Part shown: positions 1 to 5,229 of the stretch, in pieces
Numbering within the stretch: position 1 is the stretch's first letter
Layout of the letters: every line of letters begins with the position of its first letter
Source: Bacteroidota bacterium
GTDB taxonomy: Bacteria; Bacteroidota; Bacteroidia; Bacteroidales; UBA1556
Assembly: GCA_003648395.1 (NCBI GenBank)
Contig: QMPB01000388.1
Coordinates: forward strand, 1 to 5,229
Reading direction: 5' to 3'
DNA length: 5,229 bases
Notes under the pieces: generated by a model
Databases searched by the model: none
Told to the model about the DNA's origin: nothing
What the model saw: the letters and a program-made list of their open reading frames with translations, nothing else
Position numbers and translations under genes: made by a program

Positions 1-70
1 ACAGAGAAGTTAAGCCTACCTGCGCCGATGATACTGCATTTAGTTGTGGGAAAGTAGGTCGTCGCCACAG
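1..70 (+). rRNA. rrf: 5S ribosomal RNA, 3' part (5' end outside the window)
   Basis: The first ~70 bases read as the 3' two-thirds of a bacterial 5S rRNA. The conserved loop segment CAGAAGTTAAGCC-like (here AGAGAAGTTAAGCC) is followed by TGCGCCGATGATACTGC, then GTGGGAAAGTAGGTCGTCGCC. The wording is very close to Bacteroides 5S rRNA as I remember it. The closing GCCAC (65-69) would pair with a GTGGC at the missing 5' end (helix I). The exact 3' end is uncertain by a few bases (about 67-72). An intrinsic terminator follows within ten bases, so this is the end of an rRNA operon whose 16S and 23S genes should lie to the left, outside the window. Confidence 0.95.
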
Positions 71-76
71 ACATAT

Positions 77-110
77 AGCCTCATTCTGGAAACAGGGTGG
101 GGCTTTTTTT
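77..110 (+). terminator. Intrinsic terminator of the rRNA operon
   Basis: A 12-bp stem, AGCCTCATTCTG (77-88) with CAGGGTGGGGCT (93-104), contains three G-U pairs and is closed by a GAAA tetraloop (89-92). It runs directly into a T tract ending at 110. Its position a few bases after the 5S 3' end is that of an rRNA operon terminator. Confidence 0.93.
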
Positions 111-120
111 ATGCTCAAAA

Positions 121-174
121 AAAGGCTAGAGGTTTGAAAACAAGGCTAAAAGCAAAAAAAATAACAAGGCTAAA
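121..174 (+). repeat. A-rich spacer with a 12-nt direct repeat
   Basis: The stretch after the terminator is very rich in A on the + strand. AACAAGGCTAAA occurs exactly twice (139-150 and 163-174, start-to-start 24 nt), and a shorter relative, AAGGCTA, lies at 122-128. No reading frame or start codon context is visible. The repeats may be regulatory, the result of slippage, or chance in low-complexity DNA. No function is assigned. Confidence 0.5.
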
Positions 175-203
175 GTAAAAATTTAGTTGTTCAAAAGTAG
201 GTC

Positions 204-272
204 CTGACGATAAATGTTAGGATGCTGACAGAATCGTCAGTATCAGGATGCTGGACCGATAGCGTCAGCATC
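204..272. repeat. 69-nt palindromic (REP-like) element inserted in the 5S-tail copy
   Basis: The segment is built from repeated half-palindromes. CTGACGAT (204-211) is the perfect inverse of ATCGTCAG (233-240). GATGCTGAC (221-229) is the perfect inverse of GTCAGCATC (264-272). GATGCTG (247-253) can also pair with CAGCATC (266-272). AGGATGCTG is directly repeated at 219-227 and 245-253. Two successive hairpins (204-240 and 247-272) or one overlapping pairing are therefore possible. Its higher GC differs from the A-rich flanks, and its borders coincide with the break in the 5S-tail duplicate. This suggests a discrete insertion of a short intergenic palindromic repeat. No transposase or identifiable target-site duplication is visible. 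Confidence 0.6.
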
Positions 273-290
273 GTTGCAATTGATATATAA

Positions 291-322
291 GCTGCATTCT
301 TTAATTAGAGTGCGGCTTTTTT
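291..322 (+). terminator. Second intrinsic terminator (copy of the rRNA terminator)
   Basis: GCTGCATTCT (291-300) pairs with AGAGTGCGGC (307-316) in a 10-bp stem containing two G-U pairs, with a six-base TTAATT loop, followed by six T residues (317-322). It resembles the first terminator in sequence and spacing. Stem pairing is kept despite the sequence changes, so it is probably still functional. It would isolate the downstream sigma factor gene from rRNA operon read-through. Confidence 0.85.
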
Positions 323-349
323 ATATGAAATATTTAATAAAAAAGTGTT

Positions 350-377
350 ATCCTTCGTGCAACTATTTATATCTTAG
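350..377 (+). promoter_or_regulatory. Weak candidate promoter for the sigma factor gene
   Basis: TATCTTAG (370-377) matches the Bacteroidota -7 consensus TAnnTTTG at all but one position and lies 17 nt upstream of the first ATG. No convincing TTG-type -33 element is seen about 20 nt further upstream, so the call rests on one element in AT-rich DNA. A promoter is nonetheless expected somewhere in 323-393, because the preceding terminator should stop read-through from the rRNA operon. Confidence 0.2.
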
Positions 378-393
378 TGCATCATATACGTAG

Positions 394-984
394 ATGCAGG
401 GAATGTTGACCACTATCGAGACAGAGAAGCTTTTAAAGGCTTGTAAAAAAGGGAGTTATAAAGCAAGATCAAAGGTGTATAAAATATATGCTCCTATGTT
501 GCTTGGCATATGCCTGCGCTATACTAAAAATAAATCTGAAGCAGAAGATGTTTTACATGAGGGATTTATTAAAATTTACACCAAAATAGACCAAGCAGGA
601 AGAGGCTCTTTTGAAGGTTGGATGAAAAAAATTATTATGAATGAAGCCTTACAATTCTTAAGAAATAGAAATATTTCATTTAAACGACACGAAAAATATG
701 AACTTGATTATATAAGTGATTTAGCTTCTACGGATGATGTTAGTTTTGAAGGAATATCTACAAAAACTATTTTAGATTTCATTCAAAAACTACCTGAAGG
801 TTATAGGTTAATATTCAACCTATACGTATTTGAAGAATATAGCCATAAACAAATAGCAGAACTATTAAATATTTCTGAAGGTACTTCTAAATCTCAGTAT
901 TCTAGAGCTAAAAGTAAGCTTAAGAAAAGTATAAATGATTATAAAGATAATAAATTAAAAGAAAATAAATATGAAGGAATTTGA
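394..984 (+). CDS. ECF-type RNA polymerase sigma factor (sigma-70 family)
   Basis: This 196-residue protein has the two-domain layout of extracytoplasmic-function sigma factors. Region 2 spans about residues 22-93: an RSKVYKIYAPMLLGICLRY-like helix, then the conserved SEAEDVLHEGFIKIY core and the -10-binding GSFEGWMKKIIMNEA helix. A short linker follows, then region 4 at about 126-178 (KLPEGYRLIFNLYVFEEYSH) with a helix-turn-helix, HKQIAELLNISEGTSKSQYS. Region 1 and most of region 3 are absent, as expected for the class. It would direct core RNA polymerase to a specific promoter set. ATG 394 is taken as the start, but ATG 403 (residue 4) is equally plausible because neither has a good ribosome site. 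The 3' end overlaps the next gene by 14 nt, so the two are very likely translated together, which fits a sigma/anti-sigma pair. ECF subgroup not determined; a relation to the ECF21-like sigma factors of Bacteroidota is likely from context only. Confidence 0.93.
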   Translation: MQGMLTTIETEKLLKACKKGSYKARSKVYKIYAPMLLGICLRYTKNKSEAEDVLHEGFIKIYTKIDQAGRGSFEGWMKKIIMNEALQFLRNRNISFKRHEKYELDYISDLASTDDVSFEGISTKTILDFIQKLPEGYRLIFNLYVFEEYSHKQIAELLNISEGTSKSQYSRAKSKLKKSINDYKDNKLKENKYEGI

Positions 985-2461
985 TGAATTTGAAAAGTCA
1001 TTAAAAGATACCTTTAATGACTATAGTGCAGAAAAGCCATCCTCAAAACTGTGGATACGGATTAATACTAGCTTAGTGGCCTTATATGCTACTAAGAGCT
1101 CTGCTATTATTGGTTCTGTAATTGCAATTGTTAGTATTATTGCTCTTACTCTTTTTGTTAATTCTAATGAAATAATAGATAATAATTTAGTAAATATAAG
1201 AGAGACTGAATTAATAGTTAACACTGAATCTAATAATACGACAAATGCTCAAAAAAAACAAGCTGAAAATGATAATAAAACAAAAACAAATATTGTAGCT
1301 ATAACAAAACAGATTAATAATAATATAGAATCAGAAAAACAGAATAACTTAAAGAAAAGTAATACTACAGCATTTAATAATACTATAGTAAGAAATGAAG
1401 AAAAAGAAATTAGTACTTCAGTGAATGCTAATTTAATTAAAACGACAGTGATAGTTGATGAAGTATTACGAGAAAATAATACATCTTCTGTGAATAATAG
1501 CACCTCAGAACTTGTATCTTTAAATATAGATAATAGAATTAATTTTAGAGAAAAAAAGCCTGTTTATAATAAAGAAGCTGAATTAATTAGTGTTCCATTA
1601 TTGAAACATGACTATAGTAATAATACAAAGGTTAATGTTGAAATGGAACCAATAAGACCTATTGGTTCTAAAAGAAGTGTTATTCATTATAATTATGACT
1701 TCTTCTTAGGTGGGCAGTATAACTATTCACAGATTAAGCTAGATCCTACAAATAGCTATGATAAAGATTTTAATAAAAACTCTACTGCATTAGATTATAA
1801 TTTTGGAACAAATATAAATGTATATAAGGATAATTGGTTTGTTCGTTTGGGATTAAATTATAATAAATATACTGAGCATTATTTCTATAATACATCGTCT
1901 ATAAGTGTAGATTCAACAGTATATAATTATACTTTTATTAGTAGAAGTTATACTCAAATAATAACAGGTTGGAATACTAACGTAGGTGGAGGAATAGACT
2001 CCATCCCGATATATGAGCAATCTGTTGTGGAAACAACAAATCAAAACTCAGTTGCAGAGTATGATACAGCTAGAGTAATAAATAATTACGAATATAAAAA
2101 TGAGTATTCAGTAATAAATATACCTTTGCTTGTTGGTCGTGAATTTGATATGGAATCATTTGTATTTGATTTTGCAGCAGGAGTTTCATGGTCGCATATA
2201 GTAAAGTGTAATGCATATGTACTTGAACCAGAGAATGGAGAAATGATACCTATGAATGAAAATAATTCGCTTATTAAGAAGGATATTTTCAATGCAGTAT
2301 TAAGTTTAGGTGCTGGTTATAAATTAAGCCGATCTAATATTATCTTTGTGCGACCTGAATTATACTATAATCTGAATTCAATTATTGATAAAAAATATAT
2401 AGAAAATCACAAAATGTATCAAATGCGCTTTTCTTTAGGTTTACGATATACAATACGATAA
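971..2461 (+). CDS. Putative dual membrane-spanning anti-sigma factor (Dma-like)
   Basis: Four zones are visible in 496 residues. Residues 1-42 form a charged cytoplasmic segment (FDEFEKSLKDTF, then KPSSKLWIRINTSL) resembling the short, W-containing anti-sigma N-terminus common in Bacteroidota. Residues 44-63 are one hydrophobic helix (SAIIGSVIAIVSIIALTLFV). Residues 65-235 are a low-complexity Asn/Thr/Lys/Glu-rich linker, probably disordered. Residues 237-496 alternate aromatic and polar residues in beta-strand fashion (FFLGGQYNYSQIKL, WFVRLGLNYNKYTEHYF, YSVINIPLLVGREF, MRFSLGLRYTIR) like small outer-membrane porin-fold barrels. There is no cleavable signal peptide, so the helix should remain as an inner-membrane anchor. 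The order matches the Dma family described in Bacteroides thetaiotaomicron, in which one protein spans both membranes and controls a partner ECF sigma factor. Overlap with the sigma gene supports the pairing. Anti-sigma activity and barrel insertion are inferred. Alternative: a barrel-domain protein with an unrelated cytoplasmic role. Confidence 0.78.
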   Translation: MKEFDEFEKSLKDTFNDYSAEKPSSKLWIRINTSLVALYATKSSAIIGSVIAIVSIIALTLFVNSNEIIDNNLVNIRETELIVNTESNNTTNAQKKQAENDNKTKTNIVAITKQINNNIESEKQNNLKKSNTTAFNNTIVRNEEKEISTSVNANLIKTTVIVDEVLRENNTSSVNNSTSELVSLNIDNRINFREKKPVYNKEAELISVPLLKHDYSNNTKVNVEMEPIRPIGSKRSVIHYNYDFFLGGQYNYSQIKLDPTNSYDKDFNKNSTALDYNFGTNINVYKDNWFVRLGLNYNKYTEHYFYNTSSISVDSTVYNYTFISRSYTQIITGWNTNVGGGIDSIPIYEQSVVETTNQNSVAEYDTARVINNYEYKNEYSVINIPLLVGREFDMESFVFDFAAGVSWSHIVKCNAYVLEPENGEMIPMNENNSLIKKDIFNAVLSLGAGYKLSRSNIIFVRPELYYNLNSIIDKKYIENHKMYQMRFSLGLRYTIR

Positions 2462-2463
2462 TT

Positions 2464-4203
2464 ATGAGAATACTTAAAATAATTTTATTGTTAATAGTTT
2501 CAAGCTCTTCTTATGGGGCTACACTTAATGTAAGTGGAAATGTTACAGATTTGAGTAATGCGCCTATTGATAGCCATTGGGTTTATATCTCTGTTAGCGA
2601 TAGTATAAATATGTTTCAGAGTACGGACTCTGTTCAAACAAATATACAAGGAGATTATTCATTTTCTATTTCTGACCCAGCTATATCACAATATGCAAAT
2701 GCCACAATAACGGTTATTGATTGCAATAGTACTATGCATACATTACTTACTTATATGCCAGGAGGTATAGGCTATGATTTTCAGATTTGTAATGGAGTAT
2801 CGCCATCTTGCCAAGCACAATTTATGTATTTTGTAGATAGTCTAAATACAAATACCTATCATTTTGTTAATCAATCAACTAATAATATATCCAATACATG
2901 GAGTGTAAATGGGATTGTAGTAAGCCAACAGCTTGATTTTACATATACATTTTCTTCTCCTTCAGTAGATACAGTTTGTTTACAAATTATAGGAAATATG
3001 AACTGTGCTGATACTGCTTGTGCTATTATAGTAATGGATACATGTAGTACATCTTTCATTAGTATTGTTAATGGAATGACTGTAGATTTTGTTCCATTTA
3101 ATAATGGGGTTGTCGATTATTATTTCTGGGATTTTGGAGATGGTAATGTTCAAATGTCATTGGCAAGTCTTGTCTCTCATACATATTCTAATAATGGCAA
3201 TTATAATGTAGTATTAACATCATACACTGTATCTGGCCAAGATACTTGTGTTGCCGTATACTCAGATTTTGTTTTGATAGGGCAGCCTTATCCTATGGGA
3301 AACATTTATGGTTATGTTTTTGCAGGAAGTGATTACCTTGATATTGGAGAAATTTTTTTATATGCAAAGAATCCAATAAATGGTAACCTTACTTTAGTAG
3401 AGAGTACTGTATTAATACCTGATTCAAATAATGTAAGTACATATTTCATTTTCGATAATATAGCCTATGGCAACTATTATATTAAGTGTATTATTCCCCA
3501 ATCATCTAATGAATATGGAAAATATTTTAATACTTGGGCATCACAAAATCCAAATTTTCAGGAAATTAGTTGGGAGAATGCTGAAGTGTTGGAGCTTAGC
3601 TCAACCCTGCAGCTTGCAAATATTAATCTTAAAGAACCTGATGTTATTATAAGCAAAGGCTCTAGCGAAATTTCGGGATCAATAATTAATAATATGGGGA
3701 TTGATGTTTCAGAGCAAGTATTGTATTTAATGAATTATAATAAGAACTTAATAGGGTGTATTCAGCCAAATAGTACTGGAGATTTTTCTTTTGATTCGTT
3801 AGTGTATGGGACTTACTATATACGTCCAGAGCTTATAAATATTAATACTTTGGATATAGAAGTATTATTGAATGCAAATACACCTAGTGTTGGTAATATA
3901 GAGATACAGCTTGATAGTAATTCTTACTCTACATCAATTAGAAGAGATGAGAACTTAATTACATTTGATGTTTACCCAAATCCTGTTAATGAAAAATTAA
4001 ACTTGTATATTAGTGGACTACAAGGGAATGAGATTATTATAGATATTTACAATACTCTAGGAATAAATATATACTCTAAAAAGATGGTATTGCATGGTGA
4101 TTATAACTGTAATATAGATTTTTATAATAATGAGCCAGGCCTTTATATTATTACTCTCTCTGATGGTTATGAGATTTATTCTAAAAAGATTTTAAAGAAG
4201 TAA
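2464..4203 (+). CDS. Secreted PKD-domain surface protein with T9SS type A sorting domain
   Basis: A signal peptide covers residues 1-19 (MRILKIILLLIVSSSSYG), with likely cleavage before A19 or T20. Residues 20-112 form a carboxypeptidase-regulatory/CNA-B-like beta-sandwich (VSGNVTDLSNAPIDS, GDYSFSIS). Residues 113-192 are a degenerate PKD-like module without the WDFGDG motif, and 193-275 a canonical PKD domain with WDFGDG at 222-227 and HTYSNNGNYNVVLT after it. Two further beta-sandwich modules follow (about 280-345 and 402-457, each with a GxYYI strand). Residues 498-579 are a T9SS type A sorting domain: VYPNPVNEKLNLYI, IYNTLG, PGLYIITLSDG, KKILKK. It should be exported by Sec, then carried across the outer membrane by T9SS and attached to the cell surface or released. 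No catalytic motif is seen, so an adhesive or matrix role is most likely. The start lies 2 nt after the preceding stop, placing it in the sigma/anti-sigma operon. Confidence 0.9.
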   Translation: MRILKIILLLIVSSSSYGATLNVSGNVTDLSNAPIDSHWVYISVSDSINMFQSTDSVQTNIQGDYSFSISDPAISQYANATITVIDCNSTMHTLLTYMPGGIGYDFQICNGVSPSCQAQFMYFVDSLNTNTYHFVNQSTNNISNTWSVNGIVVSQQLDFTYTFSSPSVDTVCLQIIGNMNCADTACAIIVMDTCSTSFISIVNGMTVDFVPFNNGVVDYYFWDFGDGNVQMSLASLVSHTYSNNGNYNVVLTSYTVSGQDTCVAVYSDFVLIGQPYPMGNIYGYVFAGSDYLDIGEIFLYAKNPINGNLTLVESTVLIPDSNNVSTYFIFDNIAYGNYYIKCIIPQSSNEYGKYFNTWASQNPNFQEISWENAEVLELSSTLQLANINLKEPDVIISKGSSEISGSIINNMGIDVSEQVLYLMNYNKNLIGCIQPNSTGDFSFDSLVYGTYYIRPELININTLDIEVLLNANTPSVGNIEIQLDSNSYSTSIRRDENLITFDVYPNPVNEKLNLYISGLQGNEIIIDIYNTLGINIYSKKMVLHGDYNCNIDFYNNEPGLYIITLSDGYEIYSKKILKK

Positions 4204-4302
4204 TGCAACCTTTATTGTAAAAAGTATCTTTAATATAGAGCTATAAAAAGAGGCTCTAGAAAAATAATTAATTAATATATAAATCATTAAAACACCTTTG
4301 TC
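4204..4302 (+). other. 99-nt intergenic spacer with a small hairpin
   Basis: The gap is AT-rich and has no coding capacity. TAGAGCT (4236-4242) can pair with GGCTCTA (4252-4258), seven pairs including one G-U, around a nine-base loop. No T tract follows (GAAAAATAATT), so this is not a standard terminator. It could act as an mRNA-stabilising or processing hairpin, or be chance. CACCTTTG (4293-4300) is one base off the Bacteroidota -7 consensus but ends 2 nt before the next ATG, so it is not called as a promoter. Whether the downstream gene is in the same transcript is unresolved. Confidence 0.45.
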
Positions 4303-5229
4303 ATGATTAAAAAATTACTAAGTTTAACAATTCTAATTATTGCGACACTTGGATTAAGTGCGCAAACAATTAGTGGTACAGTTACAGATCTAAATGGTGC
4401 TGCTATTGCTAATCAGCAAGTTCATATTATGAATAATGATAGTATGAACCCTTATTCTTCTTCTACCTATACTACTGGCAGTGGTGCTTATTCTTTTGCA
4501 AATGTGCCTAGCAGTTCAATGGGGTTTATGGTATATACTTATGATTGTCAACAAAACTTTCAATCAGTATATGTTGCCTCTAATACGGGTACTGCAAATT
4601 TCACTATTTGTACTTCAAATCCGACGGGCTGTTCAGCAATGTTTATTGATAATCCAGACACATTGAATCCATTAGTAATTAATTTCATGGATCTTTCTAC
4701 GGGTAATCCAACTAGTTGGGCGTGGTTTTTTGGCGATGGTACTGCATCAAGTATGCAAAATCCAACACATACATATGCTTCTAATGGCAGTTATAGTGTA
4801 AGCCTAGTAATAAGTAGTGCTTTATGTACTGATAGTATTTCTTTTACTATTTATGTTGGAAATAATATACCTAGCTGTATGGCCGCTTTCTATTATGTGC
4901 CTGATAGTAATATTACTAACAGTATTGATTTCTTCGATGCTTCAGTAGGAGGTCCTACATCTTGGTCATGGGACTTTGGTGATGGCTCAACAGCGTCTAC
5001 TCAAAATCCTTCGCATAATTATGCAACACAAGGGATGTATACTGTAACTTTACTAATTGCAGGAACTAATTGTAGTGATTTAATTACACAAATGGTTTAT
5101 GTTGGTACAGGTGGAAATCCTTCAGGCTGTCAATCTTCATTTAGCTTATCAGTTCAGGGCCTAAATACTACTTTTACAGATGCATCTACAGGTGCTCCAA
5201 CAGGTTGGACATGGAATTTTGGTGATGGT
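4303..5229 (+). CDS. Secreted multi-PKD-domain protein, 3' end outside the window
   Basis: An open frame of 309 codons starts at ATG 4303 and reaches the right edge without a stop. Residues 1-20 are a clear signal peptide (MIKKLLSLTILIIATLGLSA, cleavage before Q21). Residues 21-105 are a beta-sandwich (TISGTVTDLNGAAIANQQV, GAYSFANVP) paralogous to the one in the upstream gene. Three tandem PKD modules follow, with WAWFFGDG at 139-146, WSWDFGDG at 221-228 and WTWNFGDG at 302-309, a period of about 81-82 residues. The first two are each followed by QNPTHTYASNGSYSV or QNPSHNYATQGMYTV; the third is cut by the window end. Each module opens with a Cys (110, 192, 276). A surface or matrix protein exported by T9SS is likely from the paralogy, but its sorting domain, if any, lies beyond the window. 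Ribosome site: none obvious, only A/T-rich upstream sequence, as usual in Bacteroidota. Confidence 0.9.
   Translation, partial: MIKKLLSLTILIIATLGLSAQTISGTVTDLNGAAIANQQVHIMNNDSMNPYSSSTYTTGSGAYSFANVPSSSMGFMVYTYDCQQNFQSVYVASNTGTANFTICTSNPTGCSAMFIDNPDTLNPLVINFMDLSTGNPTSWAWFFGDGTASSMQNPTHTYASNGSYSVSLVISSALCTDSISFTIYVGNNIPSCMAAFYYVPDSNITNSIDFFDASVGGPTSWSWDFGDGSTASTQNPSHNYATQGMYTVTLLIAGTNCSDLITQMVYVGTGGNPSGCQSSFSLSVQGLNTTFTDASTGAPTGWTWNFGDG

Follow-up and report, generated by a model that had tools for sequence, protein, structure and literature searches.

The 5,229-nucleotide stretch of DNA analysed here (contig QMPB01000388.1 of the Bacteroidota assembly GCA_003648395.1, positions 1 to 5,229 of the forward strand; hereafter the window) contains the end of a 5S rRNA gene followed by four genes on the + strand, which encode an extracytoplasmic function (ECF) sigma factor, a predicted anti-sigma factor of 496 residues, and two predicted cargo proteins (A and B) of the type IX secretion system (T9SS). 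We conclude, with a probability of about 0.77, that the sigma/anti-sigma pair is a Dma-type (EcfO/Reo-type) switch from the cell surface to the cytoplasm that has T9SS cargo as its own output. The evidence consists of the domain order and fold model of the anti-sigma factor, its adjacency to the sigma gene, the synteny with cargo genes, a promoter-like motif and its rarity in the genomes of relatives, and profile kinship with Dma-like proteins encoded in dma2- and NigD-type loci. The Dma-like switch is well supported; what is new is T9SS cargo as its partner gene and output.

A predicted trans-envelope anti-sigma factor

The sigma gene (394–984, +; 196 residues, alternative start at 403) scores above the cut-offs of PF04542, PF08281 and TIGR02937 and below that of TIGR02985. 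The anti-sigma gene (971–2461, +) shares 14 bp with its end, an overlap already proposed in a sequence-only reading of this DNA; start codons are uncertain because open reading frames (ORFs) were called mechanically. An AlphaFold2 model of the anti-sigma factor (m755a2abf23ec; homologues P0002–P0011) contains the parts that this reading had described, namely an N-terminal segment, one membrane helix, a linker of about 170 residues and a domain of about 260 residues, for which it had expected a closed barrel at residues 237–496.

Residues 1–42 (971–1096, +) are predicted to form a cytoplasmic helical hairpin with a KPSxxLW motif, presumably the sigma-binding module. Helices are modelled at residues 2–16 and 25–42, with block pLDDT (predicted local distance difference test) values of 49–69, falling below 50 at 18–23 and 37–42. 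Nine residues (M1, K2, F4, F7, E8, K12, P23, L27 and I31) are invariant in 11 sequences, and W28 is kept in 10 of them. The putative inner-membrane helix (residues 45–64; 1103–1162, +) is helical in the model at a block pLDDT of 34–45 and has a hydropathy window of 2.8 at residue 45. It leads into a periplasmic tether of 173 residues, 33 of them Asn (residues 65–237; 1163–1681, +), which is predicted to be disordered, with pLDDT below 50 across residues 54–235; in 74 relatives the tether measures 130–272 residues and is never shorter than 130. Residues 238–495 (1682–2455, +) are modelled as a closed, OmpA/NspA-like outer-membrane β-barrel. A sequence search of the PDB returned six weak matches (E 0.22 to 0.64), none of which is an outer-membrane barrel.

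Some relatives carry the N-terminal module two or three times 5' of the membrane helix. Counted with a hidden Markov model, two copies occur in 13 of 106 order-level proteins and three in one (L021), and two copies in 7 of 83 class-level proteins; by motif expression, L118 also has three. The loci concerned include L021:6721-8355, L023:14180-15760, L024, L056, L084, L088, L091, L118, L120, L121 and L130. An anti-sigma factor of this kind might hold several sigma molecules. In six class-level loci (L146, L148, L152, L154, L155 and L167) a different short N-terminus, of the WPxAExxLDxHF type, precedes the membrane helix and is perhaps another sigma-binding module.

Homology to Dma-type proteins

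Dma proteins are defined by an anti-sigma domain, a transmembrane helix, a disordered tether and a C-terminal barrel, encoded beside an ECF21 sigma factor (PMC13088901; here and below, published systems are described from the parts of the reports at hand). The same domain order, with the sigma gene directly upstream, characterises Dma1/Das1, Dma2/Das2 and Dma3 of Bacteroides thetaiotaomicron (PMC13088901). The fit to this family suggested by the sequence-only reading is borne out by the domain order and by profile links to Dma-like loci.

Profile links were obtained with model A4, built from 74 of 75 selected relatives of the window anti-sigma, in genomes poor in T9SS. Since SprA is present in 370 of 393 order-level genomes, few can be used for a T9SS-null comparison within the order. 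We searched 17 genomes, 16 without a SprA match and G334, which has SprA and zero sorting-domain matches at E ≤ 1e-9. The latter carries the 16S pattern, found only in G069, G174 and G334 (3/295). A genome may also lack a SprA match because it is incomplete; among the 16, G137 and G235 have 51 and 27 sorting-domain matches. Twenty loci were taken from the remaining 15 genomes, each with 0 or 1 sorting-domain match at E ≤ 1e-9.

By A4, all 20 loci encode a Dma-like protein. A sigma gene lies directly upstream in 17; none was detected in L252 and L253, and in L265 the sigma factor and barrel are fused. The 547-residue product of this fusion (L265:6263-7906), with ECF sigma domains joined to an outer-membrane barrel domain, resembles the described Dma3. 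Two of the loci have DUF4943 and DUF4858 as their next two genes (233 and 190 bits in L259; 214 and 133 bits in L263), matching the arrangement in which BT_1557 and BT_1556 adjoin dma2 (PMC13088901), and A4 matches their anti-sigma factors at E 2.5e-15 (L259) and 2.4e-10 (L263). In six others (L249, L250, L251, L253, L260 and L261) the anti-sigma factor, also found by A4, adjoins a NigD1/NigD2-family lipoprotein above cut-off; the NigD-family neighbours of L254 and L258 score below it.

Aligned by hhalign with A5, a profile of 13 T9SS-poor proteins, A4 reaches 99.7% probability over 159 columns, and the narrow model A1 96.5% over the last 116 columns. A1 by itself places 9 of the 20 T9SS-poor proteins above the inclusion threshold, with L250, L251, L259 and L263 below. 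The link to Dma2 was drawn through the neighbour genes of related loci rather than through the B. thetaiotaomicron protein sequences. On the strength of these profiles we regard the window anti-sigma as a homologue of the Dma-type proteins, probably with the same mode of action.

Association with T9SS cargo genes

Cargo A (2464–4203, +; 579 residues) starts 2 nt past the anti-sigma stop and combines a CarboxypepD_reg-like domain (below cut-off), a PKD domain (PKD_4, 39.9 bits, cut-off 27) and a type A C-terminal sorting domain (PF18962, 35.8 bits, cut-off 27; TIGR04183, 30.7 bits, cut-off 23). Cargo B (4303–5229, +) consists of PKD repeats (PF18911, 116.7 bits) and is truncated at the window end. 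Contig JAOZSY010000140.1 of genome G001 is 98.1% identical to the window across about 4.8 kb, and this genome encodes the T9SS translocon protein SprA (TIGR04189, 2673 bits). Cargo B is complete in L001 (4335-6035), where it ends in a sorting domain (G001:C383:1076-1306, 56.9 bits), and both cargo proteins of that locus carry one. Gene order is shared by the window, L001, L002 and L020, and also by L003 except that cargo A is broken in two. In L003:9780-11373 cargo A is represented by two ORFs (406 and 120 residues) and the cargo B frame stops early, which reflects either decay or an assembly error. The window family comprises 11 further sigma/anti-sigma pairs in L018–L026, and a sorting-domain protein follows directly 3' in ten of them, the exception being L026.

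Two wider samples were compared. At order level, anti-sigma matches at E ≤ 1e-5 occur in at least 231 of 393 genomes (best 3 candidates per genome scored); 80 regions fetched by descending score, skipping loci already in hand, and 12 earlier loci gave 109 anti-sigma ORFs. At class level, matches at E ≤ 1e-6 occur in at least 233 of 295 genomes (best 5 candidates per genome scored), and 80 regions, one per genome, gave 83 anti-sigma ORFs. A sigma gene immediately precedes the anti-sigma gene in 105 of 106 cases at order level and 79 of 83 at class level. In the order-level loci T9SS cargo lies directly downstream in 94 of 109, an upper figure, and no more than three genes away in 100 of 109; of the other ORFs of at least 150 residues in the same loci, 41 of 360 are called as cargo. 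Among 77 of the 109 direct neighbours (those complete, on the same strand, longer than 150 residues and within the residue limit), a Pfam/TIGR scan at E ≤ 0.001 found TIGR04183 in 69, PF18962 in 69, PKD_4 in 63 and CarboxypepD_reg in 54. On a FastTree phylogeny of 154 of 201 sigma rows, the cargo label changes 21 times compared with 51.5 in shuffles, and none of 500 shuffles was as low.

For two of the 77 direct neighbours the match is to PorZ, itself a part of the T9SS (NF052228, best E 6.6e-50); the place of the cargo may thus at times be taken by a component of the secretion machinery.

Candidate promoters

A putative autoregulatory ECF promoter lies 5' of the sigma gene (359–385, +; GCAAC at 359–363, a spacer of 16, CATCAT at 380–385), and a putative second promoter for the same sigma factor lies between the cargo genes (4205–4230, +; GCAAC at 4205–4209, a spacer of 15, TATCTT at 4225–4230). 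Upstream of the sigma gene, L001, L002, L003 and L020 all have a TGCAACTATT-like sequence followed by GCATCAT or GCGTCAT; GCAAC-N16-CATCAT is kept in the first three and takes the CGTCAT form in L020. At the site between cargo A and B, L002 and L020 keep CATCAT, and the match is weaker in the window and L001.

A loose motif (GCAAC, 14–17 nt, YRTCW) was also counted. Among sigma genes it is found 5' of 38 of 104 at order level (0.4 in shuffles), of 13 of 79 at class level (0.4) and of 6 of 17 in the T9SS-poor set (0.0). By contrast it precedes none of 106 anti-sigma genes and one of 95 directly following cargo genes, as expected if these genes share one transcript with the sigma gene. Before other cargo genes it was found in 5 of 38 cases (0.4 in shuffles). 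An open count of dyads without a preset motif put GCAAC-N18-GTCT at the top of the order set (21/104 vs 2/498); no dyad was as prominent in the class set.

Of six matches to a strict pattern across four genomes (G001, G002, G003 and G010), five belong to the operon or the corresponding loci, and the sixth falls within an ORF. A relaxed pattern gave 20, compared with 4 for a reversed-pattern control: seven in the operon or counterparts, nine inside ORFs, one before another such sigma gene (L286), one before a possible T9SS ORF (L274), one at 201 nt before an ORF (L284) and one in L282 outside any ORF of at least 80 residues. The distribution of matches suggests that the regulon is small and largely private. 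The earlier guess that T9SS neighbours mark an output different from that of the known Dma systems is strongly supported by synteny and these promoter-like sites.

The site in L274 (L274:1501; G002:C6:7303) lies 81 nt 5' of another ORF that is not part of the operon and whose product looks secreted, possibly by the T9SS.

A model of the switch and its possible signals

We propose that the N-terminal hairpin would hold the ECF sigma factor at the inner membrane, while the uncleaved membrane helix and the tether of about 173 residues would join it to the barrel inserted in the outer membrane. If the barrel fails to assemble or assembles differently, if the envelope is stressed or if a ligand binds, the disturbance would be passed down and free the sigma factor, probably by proteolysis or loss of the anti-sigma factor. 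The freed sigma factor would then transcribe from GCAAC-N16-CATCAT 5' of its own gene, co-expressing sigma factor, anti-sigma factor and cargo A, and from the similar promoter 5' of cargo B; the predicted result is an increase in the switch's own components and the export of two PKD-type proteins through the T9SS. When B. thetaiotaomicron loses Dma2, expression of das2 and of the operon genes downstream rises by log2 2.5 to 6.0 (PMC13088901), and in Phocaeicola vulgatus production of NigD requires EcfO (PMC13114119); because of these results, an autoregulated operon with secreted products fits the known members.

Several observations weigh against this interpretation. The fold model is weak at the sigma-binding part and the membrane helix (pLDDT below 50 at 18–23 and 37–52). 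The order-level rate of cargo coupling is biased upward because the sample was ranked by score and the search model was seeded on 11 close homologues and 11 same-family loci, 10 of the latter cargo-coupled. Class-wide, cargo lies directly downstream in only 21 of 83 cases and within three genes in 24 of 83 (as called by our own sorting-domain model, without a Pfam check), and cargo is therefore a non-obligatory partner; nearly every locus of the best-scoring order-level sample is coupled, but only a minority of those beyond it. The second site in the window has a degraded -10 element (TATCTT), L003 lacks a site there, and the motif is found in only 4 of 19 order-level loci with a second cargo gene, a count that misses variants because the patterns are exact. 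The loose motif was picked after L001, L002 and L020 had been viewed, and it extends beyond these sigma genes, being somewhat raised before other genes too (order 10/365, 2.2 in shuffles; class 13/409, 0.4). Finally, sorting domains are abundant in this group's genomes, with 89 matches in the 3.0 Mb of G001.

There is nearly an even chance that the switch follows the proposal made for EcfO/Reo, responding to outer-membrane stress in general or to barrels that fail to assemble, with the T9SS proteins serving simply as a protective coat. Toxins that attack the envelope induce EcfO/Reo, which drives NigD-family surface lipoproteins (PMC9308784, PMC13114119), and the related Dma loci of T9SS-poor genomes adjoin NigD genes. 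A genome may encode as many as three distinct proteins of this kind (G002 and G010, two of the G002 matches being one protein), which suggests more specific signals instead, and the window offers nothing that favours any particular signal.

It is unlikely that the cargo also provides the input, with cargo A or B binding or capping the barrel of its own anti-sigma factor at the surface and the switch acting as a sensor of completed secretion that is turned off (or on). Each locus has one barrel and one or two cargoes, tandem sigma–anti-sigma–cargo arrays occur, and in Porphyromonas gingivalis the sorting-domain protein PorA signals via PorXY to SigP (PMC7712824). Conversely, 62 of 83 class-level members have no direct downstream cargo, 30 of the 83 have no same-strand neighbour within 300 bases, and one long stretch of barrel sequence, which the topology makes a surface hairpin, hardly differs in length between coupled and uncoupled proteins. 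In the window this stretch spans residues 294–385 (91 residues), compared with a median of 31 in T9SS-poor Dma-like relatives (14 of 20 placed). Medians are 73 in order-coupled (105/109 order-level proteins compared), 68 in class-coupled and 71.5 in class-uncoupled proteins (82/83), the unplaced proteins being six T9SS-poor and one class-level. A longer stretch was considered as a mark of cargo coupling and rejected, the class-uncoupled median being similar to the coupled ones. In its specific form, an export checkpoint in which the barrel senses its own surface T9SS cargo and couples cargo transcription to successful export, the idea is rather improbable. If true, many Bacteroidota genomes would hold several private sigma/anti-sigma/cargo circuits, and the version with NigD or DUF4943 lipoproteins would be a Bacteroides form adapted to T9SS loss.

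We consider it doubtful that the anti-sigma factor occupies a single membrane, either being cut or having a periplasmic C-terminal domain, so that helix and barrel would never sit in two membranes together; localisation is not computable, and a mean pLDDT of 57.8 for the whole model with a low-confidence membrane helix leaves it some room. A chance neighbourhood, made meaningless by the abundance of T9SS cargo in genomes such as G001, is highly improbable given the enrichment over other ORFs of the same loci, the common gene order and the clustering of the cargo label on the sigma tree.

Relation to known systems and implications

Downstream partner genes are part of Dma operons as they are of the window operon, but the partners are NigD or DUF4943/DUF4858 genes in the former (PMC13088901) and T9SS cargo in the latter. 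The sequence-only reading had contrasted a pair sitting with T9SS cargo with Dma pairs standing alone; the cargo neighbours are confirmed, whereas the second half fails, as the dma2 operon includes BT_1557 (PMC13088901). A vesicle effect is reported for Dma1 and Dma2 and, in the tested backgrounds, none for Dma3 (PMC13088901); no link to vesicles is known for the window protein.

EcfO/Reo of B. fragilis and P. vulgatus likewise combines an upstream sigma gene with a trans-envelope anti-sigma factor ending in an outer-membrane barrel, and its regulon, like the window operon, includes surface-protein genes (PMC9308784, PMC13114119). In P. vulgatus this regulon takes in a nigD gene whose locus number adjoins that of ecfO-reo. 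The portions of these reports at hand list NigD lipoproteins and a lipopolysaccharide glycosyltransferase gene and do not name T9SS cargo, which is what the window carries. PorA-PorXY-SigP of P. gingivalis also ties a T9SS sorting-domain protein to an ECF sigma factor, but through a two-component route without, in the part of the account drawn on here, a trans-envelope anti-sigma factor; SigP controls the secretion machine, whereas private cargo is proposed for the window sigma factor (PMC7712824). FecA-FecR-FecI runs from outer-membrane barrel to anti-sigma to ECF sigma as well, with separate proteins and a TonB-dependent receptor (PMC9249621), in contrast to the single polypeptide of the window. 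Pfam found no TonB-dependent receptor among the window's four proteins; L001 has one further ORF, of 274 residues, outside that scan.

We found no report of a trans-envelope anti-sigma factor in an operon with T9SS cargo among titles and abstract beginnings of the open-licence papers listed by our searches, a scope that leaves outside the founding Dma1 and EcfO/Reo papers, which may mention one. A search of viral contigs found no relative. A class I anti-sigma domain is encoded near only 6% of Bacteroidetes ECF sigma factors (PMC7406223, from the part at hand), and trans-envelope anti-sigma factors, with matches in at least 233 of 295 class genomes, could explain some of the remainder. The comparison of T9SS-rich and T9SS-poor genomes suggests that the tether is old and that the surface-protein output has been exchanged between lineages, the same scaffold recurring across the class with differing surface-protein partners. 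If the pair is the proposed switch, surface events would be tied to the choice of exported proteins, and the tie to T9SS cargo provides a concrete, testable regulon and a route to what the barrel senses.

Region upstream of the operon

The 3' part of the 5S rRNA gene (1–70, +) matches Rfam RF00001 at 31 bits (gathering 38), its 5' side being lost at the window edge. A pattern scan placed a terminator-like stem-loop 3' of it (77–104, +) and a second one 5' of the operon (289–318, +); two in the window compared with 1.7 expected from shuffles is weak evidence taken alone. The region between the 5S gene and the sigma gene (59–393) is about 215 bases longer than its counterpart in L001. Window positions 59–113 and part of the sequence from 271 onward each align to L001 310–364, as if a terminator-bearing piece had been duplicated.

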